Part shown: piece by piece, positions 1,364 to 39,121 of the stretch
Position numbering within the stretch: the stretch's first letter is position 1
How the letters are laid out: each line of letters begins with the position of its first letter
DNA from: a virus
Length of the DNA: 39,121 bases
Strand: one strand, 5' to 3'
IMG/VR virus record: IMGVR_UViG_3300048079_000019
Span: 1 to 39,121 of that record
The notes under the pieces: generated by a model
Databases searched by the model: none
The model's input: only the letters and a program-made list of their open reading frames with translations
Told to the model about the DNA's origin: nothing
Translations under genes and position numbers: made by a program

Positions 1364-1795
1364 CTACAGCGTGAGGGTGTCGACACCGTTACCGCAGCCG
1401 ACATCGAATACGCATGCGACCTCGACGGCCTCACGAGCGGATTTACCGAGGTGCATGGCCGCCATGGCGTAATCACGACCGGCGCCGCGCGCGAAGAAGG
1501 GCGCTTCGATCAGCTCCGGCAGGCTGTTCGCCGCCGAATACATGAAAATTCGTCCCTTTGGATCAATTACTAGCATTCCGGCCCCGTCTTCATCGCCGGA
1601 ACGCTTTGGGTAAGTTTGGCTTATGCCATTCCGCTCGAACCAGTCCAGCAATTCCGCAGCATGGCCGCCGCTGCCCGAGAAGGCCACCAGATGCCCGCGC
1701 ACGCGGTGGATCTTCGTGACCGAGTAAGCCATGCCCGCCACGGTGCCGCGCTTGTCGGCCGCCAGCGTCTTGCCGTCCCACGCGATGACTGTCAT
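1364..1795 (-). CDS. Proteasome-beta/HslV-like Ntn hydrolase
   Basis: The 143-residue protein begins Met-Thr, so Met removal would expose an N-terminal threonine nucleophile. A strand-like start is followed by LAADKRGT (Asp14, matching the conserved Asp17 of proteasome beta subunits) and VTKIHRV (Lys28, matching Lys33). LVAFSGSG and GAGRDYAMAAMHLG resemble the later conserved glycine segments of HslV and 20S beta subunits. It lies between portal and scaffold genes, a common place for a prohead protease, and no classical S14, S49 or S78 prohead protease is visible elsewhere. It overlaps the preceding gene by 4 bases and is followed by a terminator. The fold assignment is fairly secure; a role in capsid maturation is inference. 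Confidence 0.75.
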   Translation of the reverse strand: MTVIAWDGKTLAADKRGTVAGMAYSVTKIHRVRGHLVAFSGSGGHAAELLDWFERNGISQTYPKRSGDEDGAGMLVIDPKGRIFMYSAANSLPELIEAPFFARGAGRDYAMAAMHLGKSAREAVEVACVFDVGCGNGVDTLTL

Positions 1796-2010: not shown

Positions 2011-2305
2011 TGATGGCCTCCTTGATTCTGGTTGCGAATGATTTCTTCTCCTCCTCGGCGCGCAGCTGGGAAGCAGCAAGCACGCCCTCGTTCAGCACGA
2101 TCTCGAAGATGGACTCGAAGCGGCGCTTGGCATGCAACAGCCGGTGCAGGTATTCGCGCCCCTCGACGTCACGCTCTGGCATGGCCTTCCACGCCTCGGT
2201 GATGCCATCCTCGATCGTCTTGAGCGCCTCGACGACCAGCGGGTCGGTGATGATCCGCTTGGCCGCCTCGGCGCGGTTGTTCGCTGCGTACTGCTCGTCA
2301 CTCAT
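2000..2305 (-). CDS. Small helical hypothetical protein after portal
   Basis: This 101-residue, charged, probably all-helical protein begins MSDEQYAANNRAEAAKR. It carries an Arg/Lys/Glu-rich second half ending in EEEKKSFATRIKEAINGG. It overlaps the portal stop by 8 bases and has AGGGGG about eight bases before its ATG. I recognise no domain. Its conserved position between portal and scaffold genes suggests a minor head or assembly protein, which is inference only. Confidence 0.7.
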   Translation of the reverse strand: MSDEQYAANNRAEAAKRIITDPLVVEALKTIEDGITEAWKAMPERDVEGREYLHRLLHAKRRFESIFEIVLNEGVLAASQLRAEEEKKSFATRIKEAINGG

Positions 2306-4412
2306 TGAATGCCCCCTGTTGTGGCTGCTGCATCGCCGGCTGCTGCTGGCGGGTGTTCGCCTCGAAGTCCTTGCGGTTCTGCTCGCGCTGGGCAACAGCC
2401 TCTTTCAACACCAGCTCGCGCTCCTTGATCTGCAGGTCGATTGCCTTGATCTGCAGGTCCAACTGCTTGAGCTCCTTGTCGGCTGCGATTTTCTCGCGCT
2501 GGCCCTGCAGCTTGATCATCTCGACCTCCTTCTGAGCGTCGGCCAGGATCTGCTCGGGAAGAGGTGGCGGCGGGGCAGGCGGCGGCGCCTGAACCTTGGC
2601 CGGATCGTTGAAGAACTTGTCCAGCCCCTTGATGTTCATCGCCTTGAGCAGCGCGCTGTACGCGTTGTACATCTTGCTCGGGTCCAGCATAGTCGAGCCA
2701 GCCTGCATCATCTGTTTCTGCTCGTTGATGACCATTTGCAGGTTCATGATCGTCTCGGACTTGTCGCCGGTGCCCAAGCCCACGTTGACCGTCGCGTCCA
2801 TTTCGTCCGACCAGGCGCGCGGGTCGATCGGCACCCACTCGTTGCGCAGCCGGATCGTGGTCTCGCGGTCCTGATGCTTGCACACCAGCTTGAGCAGCAG
2901 CTTGAACAGGTCTTTGACGCCGGTCTCAGCCATGATGCGCGCCATCATCTGCATGCGCTGCTGGCTGGCGGTCATGATCTTGGTCACGCCGGTCGCGGTC
3001 TTGTTCAGCGTGTCAGCTTCGAGGCCCTGGTTGTAGCGCGTGATGCCGGTCCGGATCTCGCGGCGCGTGTCCATGAACTCGATGCCCTGCAGCGCCTCGC
3101 CAGCGACCAGATTGGTCACGAGCGGCGACACCGCATTCATCATCGGGCCCTTGCCGCGGACGATACCGCCAATTCGGTTGTCCAGCAGGTCGCCCAGGTT
3201 GACCTGGGTATCCATGTTCACGTACGTGCGCGGGTTGTTCGCCAGGTACAGCGAATCGAGATACTGGCGCGTCAGCGCGGTGTTCGTGTCCTGGATCGAC
3301 GATGTCACGTCGGCCAGGGCCAGCCCGTGCACGCGGTGCGGAATCGGGATCGGCGTGATTAAGCAATAATCGTGCCCGTCCGATTCCTCGTTCTTGAGCG
3401 TCATGTTGGCGCCGCGCAGGACGTAGCGCCATTCCGCGATGCCATCGCCGCCATCGCACTGGATGAAGCCCTCGAATAGGGTGATTTCTTCCATCGCCTT
3501 GTCGAAGGTCTGGTCGTCGGTCAGCGACTCGGTTTCATCGTCGGCCAGCGACTTAAGCGACTCGGCGCCGTCGATGTGCGCGTTCATGTCGTAGCTCTGG
3601 ACCGCGAAAGCCTCGGCCTTCTCGATGCCCATTTCGACTAGGTCCGATCGGCGCAGCGTGGCGTATTGGCCGACCAGCGTCGAATCGTAGATCGAGCAGG
3701 CGCGGCGCGACACCAGGAAGGTTTCCGGCCGCACGTTGCGGATGGTGACTTGCCCCTTCTTGCGCGTGATCTTGAGCTTCACGTCGTACAGCATGCGCGG
3801 CGGCTGGGCGAGCTGCTGCTGTACCTGTGCTGCTGCTTCCGGCGCCATGGCCATGAGGCCACCGGCCAGCTGCTCGCGCTGCATTGCATCCTGCTCGTCC
3901 GGGTAGACCTGATGTTCGAGCACCTCGATGTTTTCCTGCTGCAGCATCTGCGTCAGCTGCATTTCGTCCAGGCCGGTGTATTCCTCGGTCGTGACCTTGT
4001 CGGCATCGTTCCAGAACGCGCGCACCACGCCGACCTTGGCCAGCAGCGCGTCCTTGAACCACGTGTTGAAGATCAGGAAACCCGGGTTCTGCTTCTTGAC
4101 GATGTGGTTGATGTAGTCGGTCGCCTGCGATGCGAACTGCTCATCCTCGACGCCGGTCGGCTCGTACTCCCCGATGTTGTCGCCCGACAGGAAAACGTCG
4201 AGCAGCGAGGGCAGGGCCGACTCGACCACCTCGAACACGTCCCGGCTCACGATCTGCGAGCGGCCCTCGACTTCCTTTCCGTCCGGCAGGCCCAGATATT
4301 GCGCATAGTTGCGCTCGCGCTCCGGATTGATGGCGTGATTCTGCCAGGTGGTTGCCTGCTCGATCTCGTGGTCGAGCAGCTTGTCGAACGTTTCAGCGGA
4401 GGGTTTTGCCAT
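2298..4412 (-). CDS. Portal protein
   Basis: This 704-residue protein has the length and layout of P22/SU10/BPP-1-class portal proteins, which form the dodecameric DNA gateway at one capsid vertex. The N-terminal part shows SQIVSRDVFEVVESALPSLL and FLSGDNIGEYEP, typical of this portal family. The C-terminal 120 residues are a long charged coiled coil followed by a Gln-rich tail, as in portals with a barrel domain. It follows the terminase genes with one virion gene between. Codon use is strongly GC-biased throughout. No frameshift or truncation is visible. Confidence 0.92.
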   Translation of the reverse strand: MAKPSAETFDKLLDHEIEQATTWQNHAINPERERNYAQYLGLPDGKEVEGRSQIVSRDVFEVVESALPSLLDVFLSGDNIGEYEPTGVEDEQFASQATDYINHIVKKQNPGFLIFNTWFKDALLAKVGVVRAFWNDADKVTTEEYTGLDEMQLTQMLQQENIEVLEHQVYPDEQDAMQREQLAGGLMAMAPEAAAQVQQQLAQPPRMLYDVKLKITRKKGQVTIRNVRPETFLVSRRACSIYDSTLVGQYATLRRSDLVEMGIEKAEAFAVQSYDMNAHIDGAESLKSLADDETESLTDDQTFDKAMEEITLFEGFIQCDGGDGIAEWRYVLRGANMTLKNEESDGHDYCLITPIPIPHRVHGLALADVTSSIQDTNTALTRQYLDSLYLANNPRTYVNMDTQVNLGDLLDNRIGGIVRGKGPMMNAVSPLVTNLVAGEALQGIEFMDTRREIRTGITRYNQGLEADTLNKTATGVTKIMTASQQRMQMMARIMAETGVKDLFKLLLKLVCKHQDRETTIRLRNEWVPIDPRAWSDEMDATVNVGLGTGDKSETIMNLQMVINEQKQMMQAGSTMLDPSKMYNAYSALLKAMNIKGLDKFFNDPAKVQAPPPAPPPPLPEQILADAQKEVEMIKLQGQREKIAADKELKQLDLQIKAIDLQIKERELVLKEAVAQREQNRKDFEANTRQQQPAMQQPQQGAFNE

Positions 4413-4448: not shown

Positions 4449-6230
4449 TTACGGGATGCCGAAGATGGTCTTGTACAGCGCTTGCAAGCCTGGCTTTCCG
4501 CCATCGCCGTAGGTCAGCGCGTCTTGGCCGGCCTGGTTGGCGTGGATGCCGTCTGCATTCATAAAATCGGCTCGTCGCACTGGCGCGCTTGGATTGCTAT
4601 AGTCAAACATGATCAATTCGCTGTCGAAGCAGAAAACCGTCGATCCATTTGCCAGTGACTTCGCATAATTGATGCACTGGCGAACCTTTACGTCGGAAGG
4701 CACGCCCCAATAATCCGTGTCAAGGACAAACTTGATATTTGCAAGTCCAGTAATTGCACGAACCGACGCCATAAACGCATTGTTCCGGTCAATGAATCCT
4801 TGCGGATCACTGTTAAAACCGTTCTGGCTGAAGCCCGGCATATACAGAACCGTAGGGCGAAGACCGCTATTGAGGGCATCCAATGCCACTTGCAAATACT
4901 GTATTTGGCTATGGCCGGAGCCAGTCAAGTTGACGATGCTGATAGGTCGTGCTGGCGTGCTGAGCGGCAGCAGCGCCTGGCAGTTCGGATTGTTAAATGC
5001 GTAGGTCGAATACGCGGCCGCACGAACGCTGTCTCCGGTGAACATGACCAGCTCCGCGGGAACGCTTTTATCGGCAAGGGTGACAATCGGGTAGCCGATG
5101 GCACAATAGCCGGTGTTACTTTCGGCAACACCCGTAGGCAACGCGGTCAGCGTGGTAATGGCATTCACGCCATTGCGCTTGACGCTGAAAAATTCTCGGA
5201 AATAGGGCTGCAGGCCGCGCGCGGCGTCCCAAGCTTGGTTGGTCGATTTATCTTGGGTGTAGGCACCAGCAGAGTCAATCTGGACAACTTTGACGAGCAG
5301 GATACAGCCGGGCTTGCCGTCTGCACGCGCAACACTTGGCATTGACAGAACGTCGGTGGCCATCGTCACGCAACTATTACCAGTGCTTGGAGCCAAGCCG
5401 ATGCGCTTTGACGTTGCCCCGCCAAAAGTCATATCCTTCCAGCCGAATTCGGACTTTTCGTTGTATGCCACGCCTCCGCGCATCGGTACAAAAGCGCGGG
5501 TTGCGGTATCAACCCGGATCTCATCGGTGAATGCCGCTTGTGCCATGTATTCGCCCGGCGTACCTGAACCAACACCGCTACCAATGACCCATTGCACGGC
5601 ATCTGCCATCGACTCCAATTCGACCTTGTAGAAGAACGTTGCCAGACCACTGGCGCCATTGCTGTACATGTCGTTCGATCGCAGCTTCAACGATTGCTGA
5701 ACGATCGCGGCTGATGTCCCGCCGCTCGACACGGTTGATCCGACGCCCGACTGGACCGTCGTGCAATCCACGCCGATGGTGTAGCCCACGTCAGCCTGCT
5801 GCACCTGGTACGTGAGGCTGTTGACAGCGCTGGCCACCGCGCCGCTGATGGCGGTCTTGGTGAACGGCGTCGTCGTCAGCGTGCGCGTGAACTGGATGGT
5901 GCCAGTGACGCCAGCAGGGAACGTTGCAGTCAGCGTCTGGCCGACCACGTAGCTGCCCGTGATGGCTGCGACGCCACCGCCTGACGCAGCAACAGGGCGC
6001 ACGCCGTCAGCGACTTCATACGAGCATTCGACCACGGACGCGTCAATACGCAGCGAGCCAGGCGCAAACGGCCCGAACGTGCGCGAGCCGGTCAGCTCTG
6101 CCAGTTTGCCAGCAGGCACATCCAGGCCAGACACAACCGTGAGCACAGCAACGCCAGCGGTTGCGACAGTGACGCTATCCCAGTCGGTCAGGGTGAGGGT
6201 GACGTTCGCACCAGCGTTGATTTTCGGCAT
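4449..6230 (-). CDS. Virion protein with Ig-like region and C-terminal SGNH/GDSL hydrolase domain
   Basis: This is a 593-residue protein. The start at 6230 (MPKINAG) is preferred over an upstream in-frame codon because AAGGAA lies about nine bases upstream and the preceding gene stops just before. Residues 1-180 are Thr/Val/Gly-rich and beta-like, resembling phage Ig-like decoration modules. The C-terminal half has MFTGDS (Gly399-Asp400-Ser401, the nucleophile block) and DGIH (Asp560, His563, the block V DxxH pair), the signature of SGNH esterases. Such domains deacetylate surface polysaccharide or act as receptor-binding enzymes in tail fibres. It sits between the large terminase and portal genes, away from the tail genes. 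Its base composition is more AT-rich than its neighbours, which suggests exchange. Confidence 0.75.
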   Translation of the reverse strand: MPKINAGANVTLTLTDWDSVTVATAGVAVLTVVSGLDVPAGKLAELTGSRTFGPFAPGSLRIDASVVECSYEVADGVRPVAASGGGVAAITGSYVVGQTLTATFPAGVTGTIQFTRTLTTTPFTKTAISGAVASAVNSLTYQVQQADVGYTIGVDCTTVQSGVGSTVSSGGTSAAIVQQSLKLRSNDMYSNGASGLATFFYKVELESMADAVQWVIGSGVGSGTPGEYMAQAAFTDEIRVDTATRAFVPMRGGVAYNEKSEFGWKDMTFGGATSKRIGLAPSTGNSCVTMATDVLSMPSVARADGKPGCILLVKVVQIDSAGAYTQDKSTNQAWDAARGLQPYFREFFSVKRNGVNAITTLTALPTGVAESNTGYCAIGYPIVTLADKSVPAELVMFTGDSVRAAAYSTYAFNNPNCQALLPLSTPARPISIVNLTGSGHSQIQYLQVALDALNSGLRPTVLYMPGFSQNGFNSDPQGFIDRNNAFMASVRAITGLANIKFVLDTDYWGVPSDVKVRQCINYAKSLANGSTVFCFDSELIMFDYSNPSAPVRRADFMNADGIHANQAGQDALTYGDGGKPGLQALYKTIFGIP

Positions 6231-6244
6231 TACATAGTTCCTTG

Positions 6245-6448
6245 TTAGTTGCGCTTGAGCAGCGTCCCGCGCTGAAATGAGATCCCGTCGCAGTCGATCC
6301 ATACAGACCGCCACCGTGCGCCCATCCCGATCCATGCGCGGAACACGCGCCGTCCAACGCGGCCCGGCACCCACCGCAGGTAGAACGTGAAGTGGTGTCC
6401 GCCTTCGTTGAAGGAGACGTGCTGTCGGTCGATGCGTAGCAGGCTCAT
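6245..6448 (-). CDS. Small hypothetical protein between terL and SGNH gene
   Basis: This 67-residue protein is rich in Arg, Trp and aromatic residues, with FTFYLRWVPG and RVFRAWIGMGARW. Its ATG overlaps the large terminase stop codon (ATGA), and its TAA is 14 bases before the next start. I recognise no family. The composition suggests a small beta-rich virion or assembly protein, but no function can be assigned. Confidence 0.6.
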   Translation of the reverse strand: MSLLRIDRQHVSFNEGGHHFTFYLRWVPGRVGRRVFRAWIGMGARWRSVWIDCDGISFQRGTLLKRN

Positions 6449-14484: not shown

Positions 14485-14739
14485 TTAGTGCTGCTGCGCT
14501 GCGCGGCGCCGGCCTGGCGGTGGTGCTGCGCGGATGAAGGCCCAATCGGCTTCCGGGCACAACTCCTCGCAAACCAGCATCCGGCCGCTTTCGCGCTCCA
14601 GGTTGATCGCGAGCTTTTCGGTGCATGTCCGGTTGCCGTAGCCGACTTGGCGCAGGTAGTCGAACGATGTTCCGCAGCGGGCCGCGAAGGGTTCCCGGGC
14701 TTCCACCGGGATGGCGTTCAGGTAGTCGATGAGCTTCAT
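14485..14739 (-). CDS. Cro-like (YdaS-type) HTH repressor
   Basis: This 84-residue protein is divergent from the cI-type gene. The HTH lies in residues 1-55: MKLIDYLNAI, PFAARCGTSFDYLRQVGYG with the recognition helix, then EKLAINLERESGRMLVCEE. The last segment is typical of YdaS/Cro proteins (AINLERESGGxVxxxxL). A Pro/Arg tail follows. It would bind the operators between the two genes and favour lytic growth. AGGAGT lies just before the ATG. The best promoter leaves almost no untranslated leader. Confidence 0.75.
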   Translation of the reverse strand: MKLIDYLNAIPVEAREPFAARCGTSFDYLRQVGYGNRTCTEKLAINLERESGRMLVCEELCPEADWAFIRAAPPPGRRRAAQQH

Positions 14740-14746
14740 GACTCCT

Positions 14747-14775
14747 ACTTTATCAATTGGTACAGTCAAAGTCAA
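14747..14775 (-). promoter_or_regulatory. Leftward early promoter (PR-like) with 18-bp operator O1
   Basis: On the minus strand TTGACT (14775-14770) and TAAAGT (14752-14747) are separated by 17 bases. The operator at 14748-14765 is an imperfect 18-bp palindrome covering the -10 element (CTTTATCAA then TTGGTACAG on the plus strand). The same layout recurs at 16996-17024, where the operator matches this one at 16 of 18 positions, which strongly supports both sites. Confidence 0.75.
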
Positions 14776-14785
14776 GCGAATGCTA

Positions 14786-14815
14786 ATTTATCAGATGCTA
14801 AAAGTGAGAGATAAT
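14786..14815 (+). promoter_or_regulatory. cI maintenance promoter (PRM-like) with operator O2
   Basis: TTTATC (14787-14792) and GATAAT (14810-14815) are 17 bases apart on the plus strand. Transcription would begin close to the ATG at 14822, giving a leaderless repressor mRNA as for lambda cI. The -35 element lies in a second operator-like imperfect palindrome (14786-14803) that shares TTTA-N-CA half sites with O1. Confidence 0.55.
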
Positions 14816-14821
14816 TTCCGG

Positions 14822-15550
14822 ATGAACATGTACCAGCACCGGAAAGACCGACTGATCGCACTTATCGATGCCGAATACGGCGGCGAGCGCGTGCGCTTCT
14901 GTGACAAAACGGGGATGAGCGAGTCGCGCTTGGCGCAGCTGCTATCCAAGACCTATCGCAATGGGGAGGCATTCACCGAGAAGACGGCGCGGAAGACCGA
15001 AGAACTCGCGGGCCTGCCAATGATGTATTTCGATCAAGGCATGCCAGCAATTGAGCAATCGCCCGTCGACAACGTGCTGTCCCTGGTGCCTGGCGCCCGA
15101 CGCGTGCATGCCGTGGATGGTGACGATGATGGCCTCACCCAAATCATGAAGGTCCAGCTCAAGGTGCAGGCCGGCATGACCGGGTTCCAGGTCGAGCCGG
15201 AGCATCATGACGGCCGGACGACGGGGGTGCCTACGGAATGGATACGGCACAACCAGTTCACAGCCGGCGACCTGATCGCTATTACTGTGACTGGCCAGAG
15301 CATGGAACCTGCGCTGTTTGACGGCGACGTGATTATCTTCAATGCCAGTGACAAGAAGCTCGTCGATGGGTCGGTCTATGTGGTCAATTACGAGGGTGAG
15401 GTCGTGGTAAAACGGATGATGCGCGATGCCGGGATGTGGTGGCTGTCATCAGACAATGCCGACCAGCGCAAGTACCACCGAAAGGCATGCAAGGGCGGTG
15501 AGTGCATAGTTATTGGGAAGGTTGTCCGGAAAGAAAGTACACACATATGA
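14822..15550 (+). CDS. cI: cI-type repressor with S24 peptidase domain
   Basis: This is a 242-residue protein. Residues 1-65 form an HTH domain (RVRFCDKTGMSESRLAQLLS holds the helix-turn-helix). The C-terminal S24 domain has GQSMEPALFDGD with nucleophile Ser160 and VVVKRMMRD with base Lys197. This is the LexA/cI fold that self-cleaves when RecA is activated, so the prophage should be SOS-inducible. The cleavage dipeptide is not obvious to me. The start at 14822 fits a leaderless message; 14828 is an alternative. The stop overlaps the next start. Confidence 0.92.
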   Translation: MNMYQHRKDRLIALIDAEYGGERVRFCDKTGMSESRLAQLLSKTYRNGEAFTEKTARKTEELAGLPMMYFDQGMPAIEQSPVDNVLSLVPGARRVHAVDGDDDGLTQIMKVQLKVQAGMTGFQVEPEHHDGRTTGVPTEWIRHNQFTAGDLIAITVTGQSMEPALFDGDVIIFNASDKKLVDGSVYVVNYEGEVVVKRMMRDAGMWWLSSDNADQRKYHRKACKGGECIVIGKVVRKESTHI

Positions 15551-24027: not shown

Positions 24028-25128
24028 ATGGGGCGGCAGAGATTGGCGAAGAACCGGGCCTTGCCGCCCAATCTGTACGTGAACACTGGGGGATATTACT
24101 ACTACCGCGACGCGGCGAAAAAGACGCAGAAGGGACTGGGCAAGGACCGGGCGAAAGCGATTCTCGCGGCGAAGCAGGCGAATGCGGCAGCAGCAATGCG
24201 CGAGCCGTCATCACTGGTCGATTGGGTGATGGGTAAGAGCGACTACACGCTGGTCGAGTGGTTGCCCGTATACCGTGAGTTGTGGGATGCGAAAGTGCAG
24301 CCGACAGCGAACACGCGCTACGGGGCCAACAGCCTGATCCGCAAGATCGCCGCAGCCAACATCGGCCTGATGAAGATGCGGCACATCGAGACTATGCACG
24401 TGGCCCAGTTCCTCGACACGTTCGCGAAGGAGAGCGGCGCCGGCCACGCGCGCAACATGCGCTCGAAGCTGGGCGACATTTTCAGATGGGCCGAAACGCA
24501 GGGGGTGATCGATGTCGGCCGAAGCCCGGTAACGGCCACGTTCAATCCGGAGTACAAGGTGAAGCGCGAGCGCATGAGCTTGGAGCAGTTCTGGCTCATC
24601 CACGCACAGGCGTCGACCTGGGCGAAGAACGCGATGATGCTGGCACTGGTGACTGGCCAGCGGCGCGACGACATCGTGAACATGAAGTTCGCCGACTACC
24701 AGGACGGATACCTTCACGTGGCGCAAGGGAAGTCAGGCGGCGAGACGCGGCTGCAGATCGAAGGATCGATCAAGCTGGCCAAGGTCGGCGTGTCGGTAGC
24801 GGAGGTGATTGCGGGCTGCCGCGACCTGATCGTCACGCGGCATTTGGTGCATCACACCGAGCGCGTATCGACGGCCACGCCGGGCGGCAAGGTGGCGGCC
24901 AACTCGGTGACGATCGCGTTTGCAAAGGCGCGCGAGCTGGCCGGGATCACGGCATCGGAGAGCAGGACACCGCCGACTTTCCACGAGATTCGCAGCCTTT
25001 CGGAGAGGCTATACCGGGATGAGTTCGGGGCAGATTTTGCGCAAGCGATCCTCGGCCATCGCAGCGCGCAGATGACGGCGAAGTACGACGATTTGCGGGG
25101 CGGCTGGAAGAAGGTCAGCGCGAAGTGA
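24028..25128 (+). CDS. int: Tyrosine-recombinase integrase
   Basis: This is a 366-residue lambda-Int-type recombinase. The N-terminal arm-binding domain (LPPNLYVNTGGYYYYRDAA) is followed by a core-binding SAM-like domain (about 72-165) and the catalytic domain. The catalytic set is complete: Arg212 in TGQRRDDI, Lys235 in QGKSGG, His319 and Arg322 in FHEIR, His344 in LGHRS and nucleophile Tyr353 in KYDD. It inserts and removes the phage at attB. The adjacent gap should hold attP. Confidence 0.95.
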   Translation: MGRQRLAKNRALPPNLYVNTGGYYYYRDAAKKTQKGLGKDRAKAILAAKQANAAAAMREPSSLVDWVMGKSDYTLVEWLPVYRELWDAKVQPTANTRYGANSLIRKIAAANIGLMKMRHIETMHVAQFLDTFAKESGAGHARNMRSKLGDIFRWAETQGVIDVGRSPVTATFNPEYKVKRERMSLEQFWLIHAQASTWAKNAMMLALVTGQRRDDIVNMKFADYQDGYLHVAQGKSGGETRLQIEGSIKLAKVGVSVAEVIAGCRDLIVTRHLVHHTERVSTATPGGKVAANSVTIAFAKARELAGITASESRTPPTFHEIRSLSERLYRDEFGADFAQAILGHRSAQMTAKYDDLRGGWKKVSAK

Positions 25129-29969: not shown

Positions 29970-31592
29970 TTATCCGCCGTAGCCGAATGACTGCACAGGC
30001 ATGTTTGATGGTGCCAGTTGGTAGTTGGTAGCCGTGCTGCCGGGGCTGGCGCCATTTGAGTTGCGAATCGCGTTCCAGTCCGTTGACCCGGTGCTTCCGC
30101 CGAACATGTTGCCCAGCGAGTTGCCGAACGCCATGCCCTGCATCGCGCCGCCTAGGCCTGCCGCGCCCGCGTTGCTGGCGACCGGCTGCTGGTTTGGCAC
30201 GCCGGAAAGGTACGGTTGCAGCAGAGAGTTTACGCCCTGCGCCTGCTGCAGCTTCCAGTTATCGTTCGCGTTGACCTGGCCCGAGGCCTGGTTCGACAGC
30301 CCGGACAGCAGGCCGGCGCCGCCAAGCAGCTGCCCGTTGTTTTGCGCGTTGGTCGAGAGCTGCGACTGCTGGTTGGCCAGCCCGGTTTGCTGCGCGAGGC
30401 CGGCGTTGAACTGCAGATTGTTTTGGCCGAGATTCGCGTTGAACTGCTGGTTCTGCTGGCCGAGGTTGGCGTTGGTCTGTCCGGTCTGCTGCGCCAAGCC
30501 CGCGTTGAATTGCTGGTTTTGCTGTCCCAAGTTGGCATTCGTTTGCCCGGTCTGCTGTGCCAAGCCAGCATTGAACTGGTTGTTGCTCTGGCCCAAGCTG
30601 GCGTTGAACTGGCCGTTTTGCTGCGCCATGTTCGCGTTGGTTTTCGATGCGTCGAACAGGTTGCCCACGTTCGCCATTTCTGCCTGCTGCGCGTTGGCCG
30701 CGTTCTGCTGCGCCACGCCGTATTGCTGCGCGCCCAGGCCCTGCGTCGCGGCCAGTTGGCGATCACGGTCAGTGTTGTATGCGCCGGCCTGCGCCGCGAC
30801 GGCCGCATCGGTGTTGTTCTGGCCGAACTGCGACGCCGCGCGCGACAGGTTCGTGTTCATGCTGTCGATCGCCTTGCCCTCGGCGATGCCCTGGCGCGAG
30901 CCGCCAAACTGCCCAGTCAGCACCGAGTTGCCGCGAATGCTGCCCAGCACGTCCTGCGTCGCGGCCTTGGCGTCGGTCACCATGTTGCCGAAAGCATTCT
31001 GCGACTGGTTGATGCCTTTCTGCACCGCGCCCGTCAGGTATGGGTTGGCGCCCGGCGCGCCGTTGATCAGACTGTCATACGAGCCGGACAGGTTCATGCC
31101 GTTCTGCGATGGCGCCTGCACCTGCGCGCCGACGGCATATGCTGGCAAGCTGGCCATCGCCGCGCCCGCCTGCGAGCTGGCAGCCTGCGGTGCTGCGCCC
31201 ATTTGCGTGCCGGCCGACTGGGCGGGCATACCCATCTGCGTGCCAGCCGACTGGGAATAGCCTGCTTGCGCTGACTGCGACATGGGCGCCTGGTTGCCCT
31301 GCATCGCCTGGAGTGCGGCGTTTCGCGTCGCGGCCATGTCGCCGGCGCCGTTGGCATTCAGGTAGTCAGCGTTTGCGTTGGCAAAGCCAGTACCTGCAGC
31401 CGAGCGCGGGTCATTGAGCATGCCCTGGTACTGCGAGAGCAGGCCCTGTTGCCCATTTCCGCCGTGCAGAATCGCAGCCAGGCGGGGATCGATCTTGTTG
31501 CCCTCGGCCGTGATTTTCGCTGCGTCCTTGGCGCCTTTCGACGAGATTGCAGCGCCTGCGACGGCGCCTACTACTGGGAGAACTGCTGGCAT
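29970..31592 (-). CDS. Ejection-type protein with 11-residue repeats
   Basis: This is a 540-residue Gln/Asn/Ala/Gly-rich protein. The start at 31592 is chosen because GGAAGGA lies six bases upstream; a second ATG at 31598 is too close to that site. The N-terminus (AVLPVVGAVAGAAISSKGAK) is a short hydrophobic helix. The middle has two SAGTQMG copies. Residues near 317-404 form eight consecutive 11-residue repeats. Low Cys and charged content with Gln/Asn-rich helices matches proteins that form a conduit or line the capsid before ejection. It follows the GNAT gene with a 22-base overlap. Confidence 0.65.
   Translation of the reverse strand: MPAVLPVVGAVAGAAISSKGAKDAAKITAEGNKIDPRLAAILHGGNGQQGLLSQYQGMLNDPRSAAGTGFANANADYLNANGAGDMAATRNAALQAMQGNQAPMSQSAQAGYSQSAGTQMGMPAQSAGTQMGAAPQAASSQAGAAMASLPAYAVGAQVQAPSQNGMNLSGSYDSLINGAPGANPYLTGAVQKGINQSQNAFGNMVTDAKAATQDVLGSIRGNSVLTGQFGGSRQGIAEGKAIDSMNTNLSRAASQFGQNNTDAAVAAQAGAYNTDRDRQLAATQGLGAQQYGVAQQNAANAQQAEMANVGNLFDASKTNANMAQQNGQFNASLGQSNNQFNAGLAQQTGQTNANLGQQNQQFNAGLAQQTGQTNANLGQQNQQFNANLGQNNLQFNAGLAQQTGLANQQSQLSTNAQNNGQLLGGAGLLSGLSNQASGQVNANDNWKLQQAQGVNSLLQPYLSGVPNQQPVASNAGAAGLGGAMQGMAFGNSLGNMFGGSTGSTDWNAIRNSNGASPGSTATNYQLAPSNMPVQSFGYGG
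30381..30644 (-). repeat. Eight consecutive 33-bp (11-residue) coding repeats, including an exact-length 66-bp tandem pair
   Basis: Reading down the minus strand from 30644 the units are KTNANMAQQNG, QFNASLGQSNN, QFNAGLAQQTG, QTNANLGQQNQ, QFNAGLAQQTG, QTNANLGQQNQ, QFNANLGQNNL and QFNAGLAQQTG. Units 3-4 and 5-6 form a 66-bp tandem duplication (30513-30578 and 30447-30512). Their protein is identical but their DNA differs at many silent sites, so the duplication is old and kept by selection. Confidence 0.9.
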
Positions 31593-32047
31593 GTCCATTC
31601 CTTCCGTGTTATTCCGAGCATTATTTGATCTTCCAGCTTGCCGTTTCGCAGGAAGCTGGAGCGGTTGTTGCCTTCGACCTGCATGCCGCTCGCTTTCGCG
31701 AAGCGCAGGGCGGGGCGGTTGTAGGCCGGGACGTTGGTGACCACCTTCTGGCAGTCGGCGTCTTCGAACAGGTGGGCGAGCAGCAGTTGCGCCGCGCGCG
31801 CCGCGCCAGCGCCCCATATGCGGGGCAGCAAACAGGTGTGCACCTCCCAGCAGGCCTCGCCGCGCGCATGCGCCAGGAACACGCCAGCCGGCGCGCCGTC
31901 CGTCACCAGCAGCCAGTGGAAGCCGTCCAGGTCGTGCGGCGCGGCCTCGGTCGCCCCGTCTTCGTGAATGTGTGGCCAGATGGCCGGGTGGGACAGGATC
32001 GCCGTCACCAGCCCCATGTCGCGTGTTCGCTCGATGTGCATGCTCAT
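31571..32047 (-). CDS. GNAT-family N-acetyltransferase
   Basis: This is a 158-residue protein. The acetyl-CoA pyrophosphate loop is LLPRIWGAGAARAA (about 73-86). The later half, NVPAYNRPALRFAKASGMQV (about 105-124), is the usual GNAT motif B with the Asn-x-x-(A)-x-x-F helix. Related genes lie in the tail and ejection regions of several podoviruses, where they may modify a virion or host protein; this is inference. The start at 32047 overlaps the previous stop (ATGA). Confidence 0.8.
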   Translation of the reverse strand: MSMHIERTRDMGLVTAILSHPAIWPHIHEDGATEAAPHDLDGFHWLLVTDGAPAGVFLAHARGEACWEVHTCLLPRIWGAGAARAAQLLLAHLFEDADCQKVVTNVPAYNRPALRFAKASGMQVEGNNRSSFLRNGKLEDQIMLGITRKEWTCQQFSQ

Positions 32048-38183: not shown

Positions 38184-39119
38184 TTACGACAGGTCGCGGA
38201 TCGCGGCGCTGGCGGCCTCGTTCTTGCTCTTGAGGGTCCATTCCGTGTTGATCATGCGTTTCTTGCTGTCGCCGGTCTTGGCCAGGTCCTCGCCCTTCAT
38301 CGGACGCAGGGTCATCAGCGACCACATTTCCGGATCCAGCAGGAAGATGTCGCGCGAACGCTGGTAGCGGCTGTTGATGATCGAGTAGCGGCCGAAGTCG
38401 CCGACGTACACCTCGACAGTCGCATTCAGCGTCTTGTCTTCGGTCTTGTCGAACTTGGTGGCGCCGCCGGTGAAGGCCGACACCGCGCCGCGCTGCGCCG
38501 ATGGTACGAACAGCAGGGTAGGGTTGCCGCCCTGGTCCCAGGCCGCTTTCGCCACGTCCTTGAGCATCTGCTCGGTGATCGCGCGCAGGGTGCCGTCAGT
38601 CGGCGCCACGTTCGTGATCGGGTTTGGAGCGACGCCGGTAGCGCCCAGGCTGTTGTTGGTCTGAATCCAGCCAGCCACGCCGCGCGCCTGGCCGGCTACG
38701 CCGGTTGCAGCAGCGATTGCCGTGGTGTTCTGCAGCGCAGCGAACTCGATGTCGCGCTTGAGCTCGACCATCTTCTTCGCGTCCTGGTAGGCGATTTCCG
38801 ACTTGCGGCCGGCCTTCGACACTGCTTCCTGCGAACCGGTGACCGCGTAGGTCTTTTCCGAGATCTGCATGCGGTTGCCGACGCGCACGGTCGGGGCGAT
38901 CGCCGAGAACGTGGCTTCGTTACCCTGCTCGACCTTGTTGTTCGCGGCGGCAGCCAGCACGTCGGTCTGCCATTCCTCGTACTGGGCCGAGGCTTTTTCC
39001 TTGCCGATGGACGACAGGAACGGCGTTTCTTCCGGGTTGATGTTGAAGATCTCGTTGGCGAGCGATTCACGCAGGCCGACGGCGTTGAAGGTTGCCATTG
39101 CGTTGGCGAGTTGTGCCAT
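38184..39119 (-). CDS. Major capsid protein (DUF5309/SU10-type)
   Basis: This is the complete 311-residue coat protein. The N-terminus (FNAVGLRESLANEIFNINPE, then ETPFLSSIGKEKASAQYEEW) and the C-terminal YSIINSRYQRSRDIFLLDPE and SLMTLRPMKGEDLAKTGDSK match the DUF5309 HK97-fold coat family. It assembles around the scaffold on the portal. Its first 98 codons are repeated, with silent changes, at the left end of the window. The ATG lies two bases before the right edge, so the ribosome site is seen only in the left copy. Confidence 0.95.
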   Translation of the reverse strand: MAQLANAMATFNAVGLRESLANEIFNINPEETPFLSSIGKEKASAQYEEWQTDVLAAAANNKVEQGNEATFSAIAPTVRVGNRMQISEKTYAVTGSQEAVSKAGRKSEIAYQDAKKMVELKRDIEFAALQNTTAIAAATGVAGQARGVAGWIQTNNSLGATGVAPNPITNVAPTDGTLRAITEQMLKDVAKAAWDQGGNPTLLFVPSAQRGAVSAFTGGATKFDKTEDKTLNATVEVYVGDFGRYSIINSRYQRSRDIFLLDPEMWSLMTLRPMKGEDLAKTGDSKKRMINTEWTLKSKNEAASAAIRDLS

Positions 39120-39121
39120 GA
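38825..39121. repeat. Right copy of imperfect terminal direct repeat
   Basis: This stretch matches bases 1-297 with seven third-position differences. It carries the N-terminal coding part of the complete capsid gene. Confidence 0.95.

Follow-up and report, generated by a model that had tools for sequence, protein, structure and literature searches.

A proteasome-like hydrolase in a variable slot of a phage head operon

What does a proteasome-like hydrolase do among the genes that build a phage head? The question is raised by an open reading frame at 1364–1795 on the minus strand of the window, by which we mean the whole 39,121-nucleotide stretch analysed (IMG/VR virus record IMGVR_UViG_3300048079_000019, positions 1 to 39,121). 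An initial annotation placed the frame exactly, omitting its strand, and proposed both that it encodes an HslV-like Ntn hydrolase with Thr, Asp14 and Lys28 at its centre and that the enzyme removes scaffold in the stead of a prohead protease. The first proposal is borne out by profile match, predicted fold and residue conservation; the second is not, since the gene is cleanly absent from relatives that share portal, scaffold and capsid. We consider it probable that the gene is an optional, horizontally acquired accessory, and that its product – a hydrolase made late – is not a head-maturation protease, the head assembling without it.

Phage proteasome homologues have already been described as PPH (Fuchs 2021, PMC8665760): proteins of ~140 amino acids, found in phages and prophages, that have neither H2 nor S12/H5, and for which the describers saw no genomic context hinting at function. 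Phage members thus being known (PMC8665760), the "new use of this fold" that the initial annotation envisaged is not supported. PPH are nonetheless among the few viral proteasome homologues, and a gene neighbourhood can now be supplied where none had been found informative: in unrelated phages PPH turns up again and again among head/connector genes, each time as one optional gene with exact boundaries, and elsewhere a specific second protein family occupies its position. Because the slot is optional and exactly bounded, function is testable by single-gene swap or deletion in near-identical phages. The tempting idea of a proteasome subunit that matures phage heads is removed as unsupported.

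Fold, active site and family

The protein (143 amino acids, beginning Met-Thr from an ATG start) matches phrog_1040, "peptidase HslV family", in PHROGs (E 2.3e-34), and scores just under the cut-off for Pfam Proteasome (21.9 against 22.4 bits). Detection in the PDB required a profile, the lone sequence being insufficient: single-sequence phmmer gave chance-level matches only (BPH weakly, E 0.62), whereas a profile built from 71 relatives found BPH at E 3e-7, and also HslV and 20S chains. The structure prediction and fold search that the initial annotation had proposed as a check came out in favour of its fold claim: for an AlphaFold model that drew on 66 relatives (pLDDT 94.5, pTM 0.89) the best PDB matches in Foldseek were BPH (E 1.9e-9), HslV and 20S beta subunits, and among viral models the predicted fold resembles other phage Ntn hydrolases.

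Thr2, Asp14, Lys28 and Gly104 are invariant in all 71 aligned relatives, and Gly41, equated by eye with the oxyanion glycine Gly47, is kept in 70 of them. The GSG loop is represented in the window protein by Gly104-Ala105-Gly106; position 105 is Ser in 53 of the 71 and Ala in the window and six others, and it is possible that Ala in place of Ser leaves activity lower or altered. Towards the C-terminus a motif Asp131-x-x-Cys134-Gly-Asn-Gly includes a cysteine present in 64 of 71 relatives. The only helices in the model (43–54, 107–115 and 120–130; the final strand is 138–142) fit H1, H3 and H4, with H2 and the C-terminal S12/H5 missing. Values of dN/dS of 0.10–0.17, with 0.14 against the nearest relative (L002), indicate purifying selection. 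Judged by conservation and predicted fold, the protein is apparently a catalytically competent hydrolase.

By length, helices and distribution the protein is a member of PPH. It shares with the family (PMC8665760) a length of ~140 amino acids, a Thr/Asp/Lys centre and similarity to BPH and HslV; there is no propeptide, Thr2 follows the initial Met in 71 of 71 relatives, the triad Thr1/Asp17/Lys33 corresponds to the invariant T2, D14 and K28, helices H1, H3 and H4 are present when the model is compared with the text of that paper, and no excluding feature was found. Relatives of the window protein occur in 454 of 50,697 phage records. BPH (PDB 5ovs/5ovt), with which the N-terminal Thr hydrolase fold is common, is the best match by both fold and profile, but its chains in the PDB run to ~185–200 residues, and it is described as a tetradecameric double ring (PMC5777263). 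HslV (ClpQ) has the fold (TM-score 0.72–0.81, normalised by query), the catalytic residues and the GSG loop in common with the window protein; it is longer, however, at ~175 amino acids, and its full fold includes H2, which is absent from our model. HslV acts as a dodecamer together with the ATPase HslU, and those window proteins that were scanned included neither HslU nor any other unfoldase. Classical prohead proteases (S78, ClpP-like, S49, S77) differ in fold and catalytic type. PPH resembles them in its location by portal and scaffold, but a protease of this class would be expected to accompany the head genes that depend on it, and close relatives sharing those genes lack PPH.

The slot between orf72 and scaffold

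The head region of the window is of SU10/LUZ24 type and runs on the minus strand in the order small and large terminase, a 641-amino-acid protein, portal, orf101, orf72, PPH, scaffold and capsid. The SU10-type portal gene (2298–4412, minus; PF23899, E 3e-195) is followed by orf101 (2000–2305, minus; a weak match to phrog_8161) and the small gene orf72 (1792–2010, minus), which forms the upstream edge of a variable slot; the downstream edge is the head scaffolding gene (308–1300, minus; phrog_3927, E 3.8e-38). The placement between portal and scaffold given by the initial annotation stands, with orf101 and orf72 intervening on the portal side. The stop codon of orf72 and the start codon of PPH overlap in an ATGA (1792–1795, minus), a geometry of translational coupling. 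Between PPH and scaffold lies a terminator-like hairpin with a T-rich tail (1289–1309, minus), a consensus match only, and a similar sequence is found in the PPH-less records L088, L099, L089, L091, L095 and L096.

The SU10-type major capsid protein (38184–39119, minus; 311 amino acids) aligns over residues 9–310 with positions 7–291 of the 292 in PF17236; filling the model from residue 9, it has no evident propeptide. The first codons of its gene recur at 2–295 because the ends of the record overlap by 297 nt. This end repeat (1–297 and 38825–39121, 98% identity) suggests a circular or permuted genome, the copies having slightly diverged. As a separate observation, the gene for the 641-amino-acid protein that separates terminase from portal (4449–6374) has the look of another variable insertion, since only 2 nt lie between the terminase and portal matches in L092, L095 and L100.

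Portal relatives were gathered independently of their PPH status. Only one of 15 portal-related records has PPH (absent from 14), and in 11 of the 13 portal relatives with readable gaps it is absent with no detectable classical protease in its place; several PPH-less relatives are fragments, and absence from the whole genome is firm only for records of about 37–46 kb. The related record L088 is 91% identical to the window in portal, 84% in scaffold and 91% in capsid, and its slot is empty. Here, as in L099, the scaffold leader directly follows the orf72 stop, an empty site of single-codon precision (window, AGCACGCATCCATGACAG[gene]CTGTAGCTATAACAGGGCC; L088, AGCACGCACTGATAACAGGGCC). In L092, the capsid of which is 94% identical, the slot holds an unrelated 121-amino-acid gene, and in L094 and L100 a gene of 61–62 amino acids. 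The head region of LUZ24-like PaP4 (portal 31% identical) has no PPH. In several PPH-less relatives orf72 is longer (124–152 amino acids); a long Pro/Ala/Glu-rich N-terminal extension is seen at L088:8409–8867 and L099:8403–8861 and in L091, L095 and L096, and not in the window.

As the initial annotation noted, no classical prohead protease is found among the window proteins scanned. This is normal for the head type and implies no lost activity: S78, ClpP and S49 were above cut-off in none of 50 PPH-bearing records and in none of 34 relatives that share these head types and lack PPH, and PPH therefore replaces nothing detectable. The absence of these proteases from PPH-bearing records was considered as evidence of replacement and rejected, since the PPH-less relatives are without them too. 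It appears that the PPH-carrying head types do without a classical protease, PPH present or not. A search of a limited literature collection for a phage HslV-like capsid protease found no such work.

Mobility and exchange of the gene

Copies of PPH that are 64–73% identical occur in phages without detectable head-gene similarity to the window. In a tree of 72 sequences the window protein falls in a 12-member PPH clade (SH-aLRT 100) in which three head lineages, A, B and C, are intermingled; on this tree the lineage labels require at least eight changes. Compared with L002, the window's PPH has a synonymous divergence of 0.82, well over the 0.10–0.33 of the four neighbouring genes compared, as would fit a history apart from theirs within one slot. 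Of the 80 IMG/VR relatives that are nearest, 74 have an upstream neighbour on the same strand, which overlaps PPH by exactly 4 nt in 45 of the 74; portal, scaffold, adaptor Ad1 and head-closure Hc1 are among the neighbours. One PPH-bearing phage also encodes a Mu F-like minor head protein (L044:553–2334) whose terminal domain matches PF03496 (ADP-ribosyltransferase).

In cultured phages PPH lies mostly outside head regions: in convergent small-gene islands in some, in early or lysis-side clusters in others. It adjoins tRNAs and tellurite genes in the jumbo phage Machina, sits within small-gene clusters in CcrPW and Kikimora, and is found also in early, tRNA or small-gene regions in MAL1 and SZH-1. 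Caulobacter phage C1 has it in its terminal repeat. In phiM5, which has a related head, PPH is placed between large terminase and portal; according to the phiM5 record, portal, scaffold and capsid were detected in particles, whereas the peptidase carries no such mark, which leans against its being virion cargo in that phage.

PPH occupies the slot orf72|scaffold in lineage A, portal|scaffold in lineage B and adaptor|head-closure in lineage C – three unrelated head lineages. Scans seeded on the lineage C capsid protein and the lineage B scaffold likewise showed presence or absence of PPH in fixed slots. The alternative occupant is phrog_17560, a protein of 121–124 amino acids with an invariant GFIMDGWHR that is homologous across the three lineages (L092:8618–8983, L180:4506–4880 and L142:7005–7376; also L187–L259). 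Its model (pLDDT 91.3) gives weak Foldseek matches to sulfiredoxin and ParB (best E 0.007), and Pfam offers no convincing assignment for this ParB/sulfiredoxin-like (ParB/Srx-like) protein. It takes the same slots as PPH but has a different fold and no protease signature.

Deduplicated occupancy (PPH, ParB/Srx-like, neither) is 2, 1 and 11 of 14 records in lineage A, 6, 3 and 7 of 16 in B, and 26, 49 and 15 of 90 in C, counts that draw in part on searches starting from one or the other family and that include many fragments. Scans seeded on neither gene gave 1, 1 and 11 of 13 in A, 4, 1 and 6 of 11 in B, and 10, 2 and 15 of 27 in C. Both genes in one slot were never seen in lineages A, B or C; across whole IMG/VR records, none of 44 that bear PPH has the ParB/Srx-like gene, and none of 50 that bear the latter has PPH. 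Machina has PPH and a divergent ParB-like gene in one genome. In lineage C the swap is bounded by an ATGA at the adaptor stop and an ATGA at the start of the next gene. A third occupant was noticed in the lineage B slot, a 163-amino-acid protein (L177:4013–4504 and L185:4414–4905) that contains an HECTH (HExxH-like) motif and matches phrog_1365 weakly. None of the three occupants (PPH, the ParB/Srx-like protein and that of L177) has a match in PADLOC.

What the hydrolase may do

Could the enzyme nevertheless be a prohead or scaffold protease, cutting scaffold within the procapsid as a substitute for S78, ClpP or S49? Its position between portal and scaffold, repeated in lineage B phages, its intact active site and the 50 PPH-bearing records with none of these proteases above cut-off all speak for such a role. 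It is nonetheless very unlikely, and the evidence does not support it: relatives 91% identical in portal and capsid and 84% in scaffold have an empty slot and no classical protease, and the slot of L092, with its 94% identical capsid, is occupied by the ParB/Srx-like protein, an occupant without protease signature in three head lineages. Moreover, the capsid has no evident propeptide, the phiM5 record notes scaffold in virions and makes no such note for the peptidase, the PaP4 head region does without PPH, and cultured phages have PPH far from head genes. Somewhat less improbable, though still unlikely, is a monomeric, highly specific connectase-like enzyme that processes or ligates one phage structural protein and is dispensable, tuning the head and not maturing it. 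PPH is without H2 much as connectase is without the first helix pair (PMC8665760), and PPH often adjoins portal, adaptor and head-closure genes; but from one lineage to another (A, B, C) the structural neighbours change while PPH of the window clade stays 63–73% identical, so that a single structural substrate is unlikely. That the gene is decaying and no longer functional, as Ala105 in the GSG loop might hint, is barely credible with catalytic residues and reading frame intact and a dN/dS of 0.14.

The reading that we prefer, an optional accessory hydrolase, is favoured by the exact empty site in L088 and L099 and by the unrelated genes that fill the slot in L092, L094 and L100. Against a mere passenger counts the frequency with which PPH is found in head/connector operons of metagenomic relatives, which exceeds the specificity that a chance passenger calls for and makes a head-linked role conceivable. 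On the accessory reading, PPH would be a passenger between orf72 and the scaffold gene, and the layout suggests late translation, tied to that of the structural genes by the ATGA overlap. Host methionine aminopeptidase would expose Thr2 as the nucleophile, which with Asp14 and Lys28 is predicted to form the catalytic centre. Late in infection the enzyme most likely would cut specifically, or modify, a single protein or a small number of proteins of host or phage.

A sharper version, compatible with the accessory reading, is that PPH and phrog_17560, of unrelated folds, are interchangeable for one late task – countering one host process, for example, or serving as virion cargo for the next host – and are swapped ORF-for-ORF in at least three lineages. 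We consider this possible but less likely than not. Three common slots in which the two are never together, their complete separation across whole records (0/44 and 0/50) and the lineage C swap, with ATGA overlaps on both sides, are as a shared task would have it. However, a slot with room for one gene would yield exclusivity without common function, the counts are partly family-seeded and many records are fragments, Machina carries PPH plus a divergent ParB-like gene, slots A and B are also used by other genes, and the unmarked phiM5 peptidase argues against the cargo version. The exchange is the most interesting lead from this locus, and the slot pattern is new here.

Elsewhere in the window, a small N-acetyltransferase-like protein (31571–31951; phrog_1249, and phrog_651 "head morphogenesis") is encoded among virion genes, and an integrase and an S24-type repressor (24028–25128 and 14729–15550) indicate that the phage is probably temperate.
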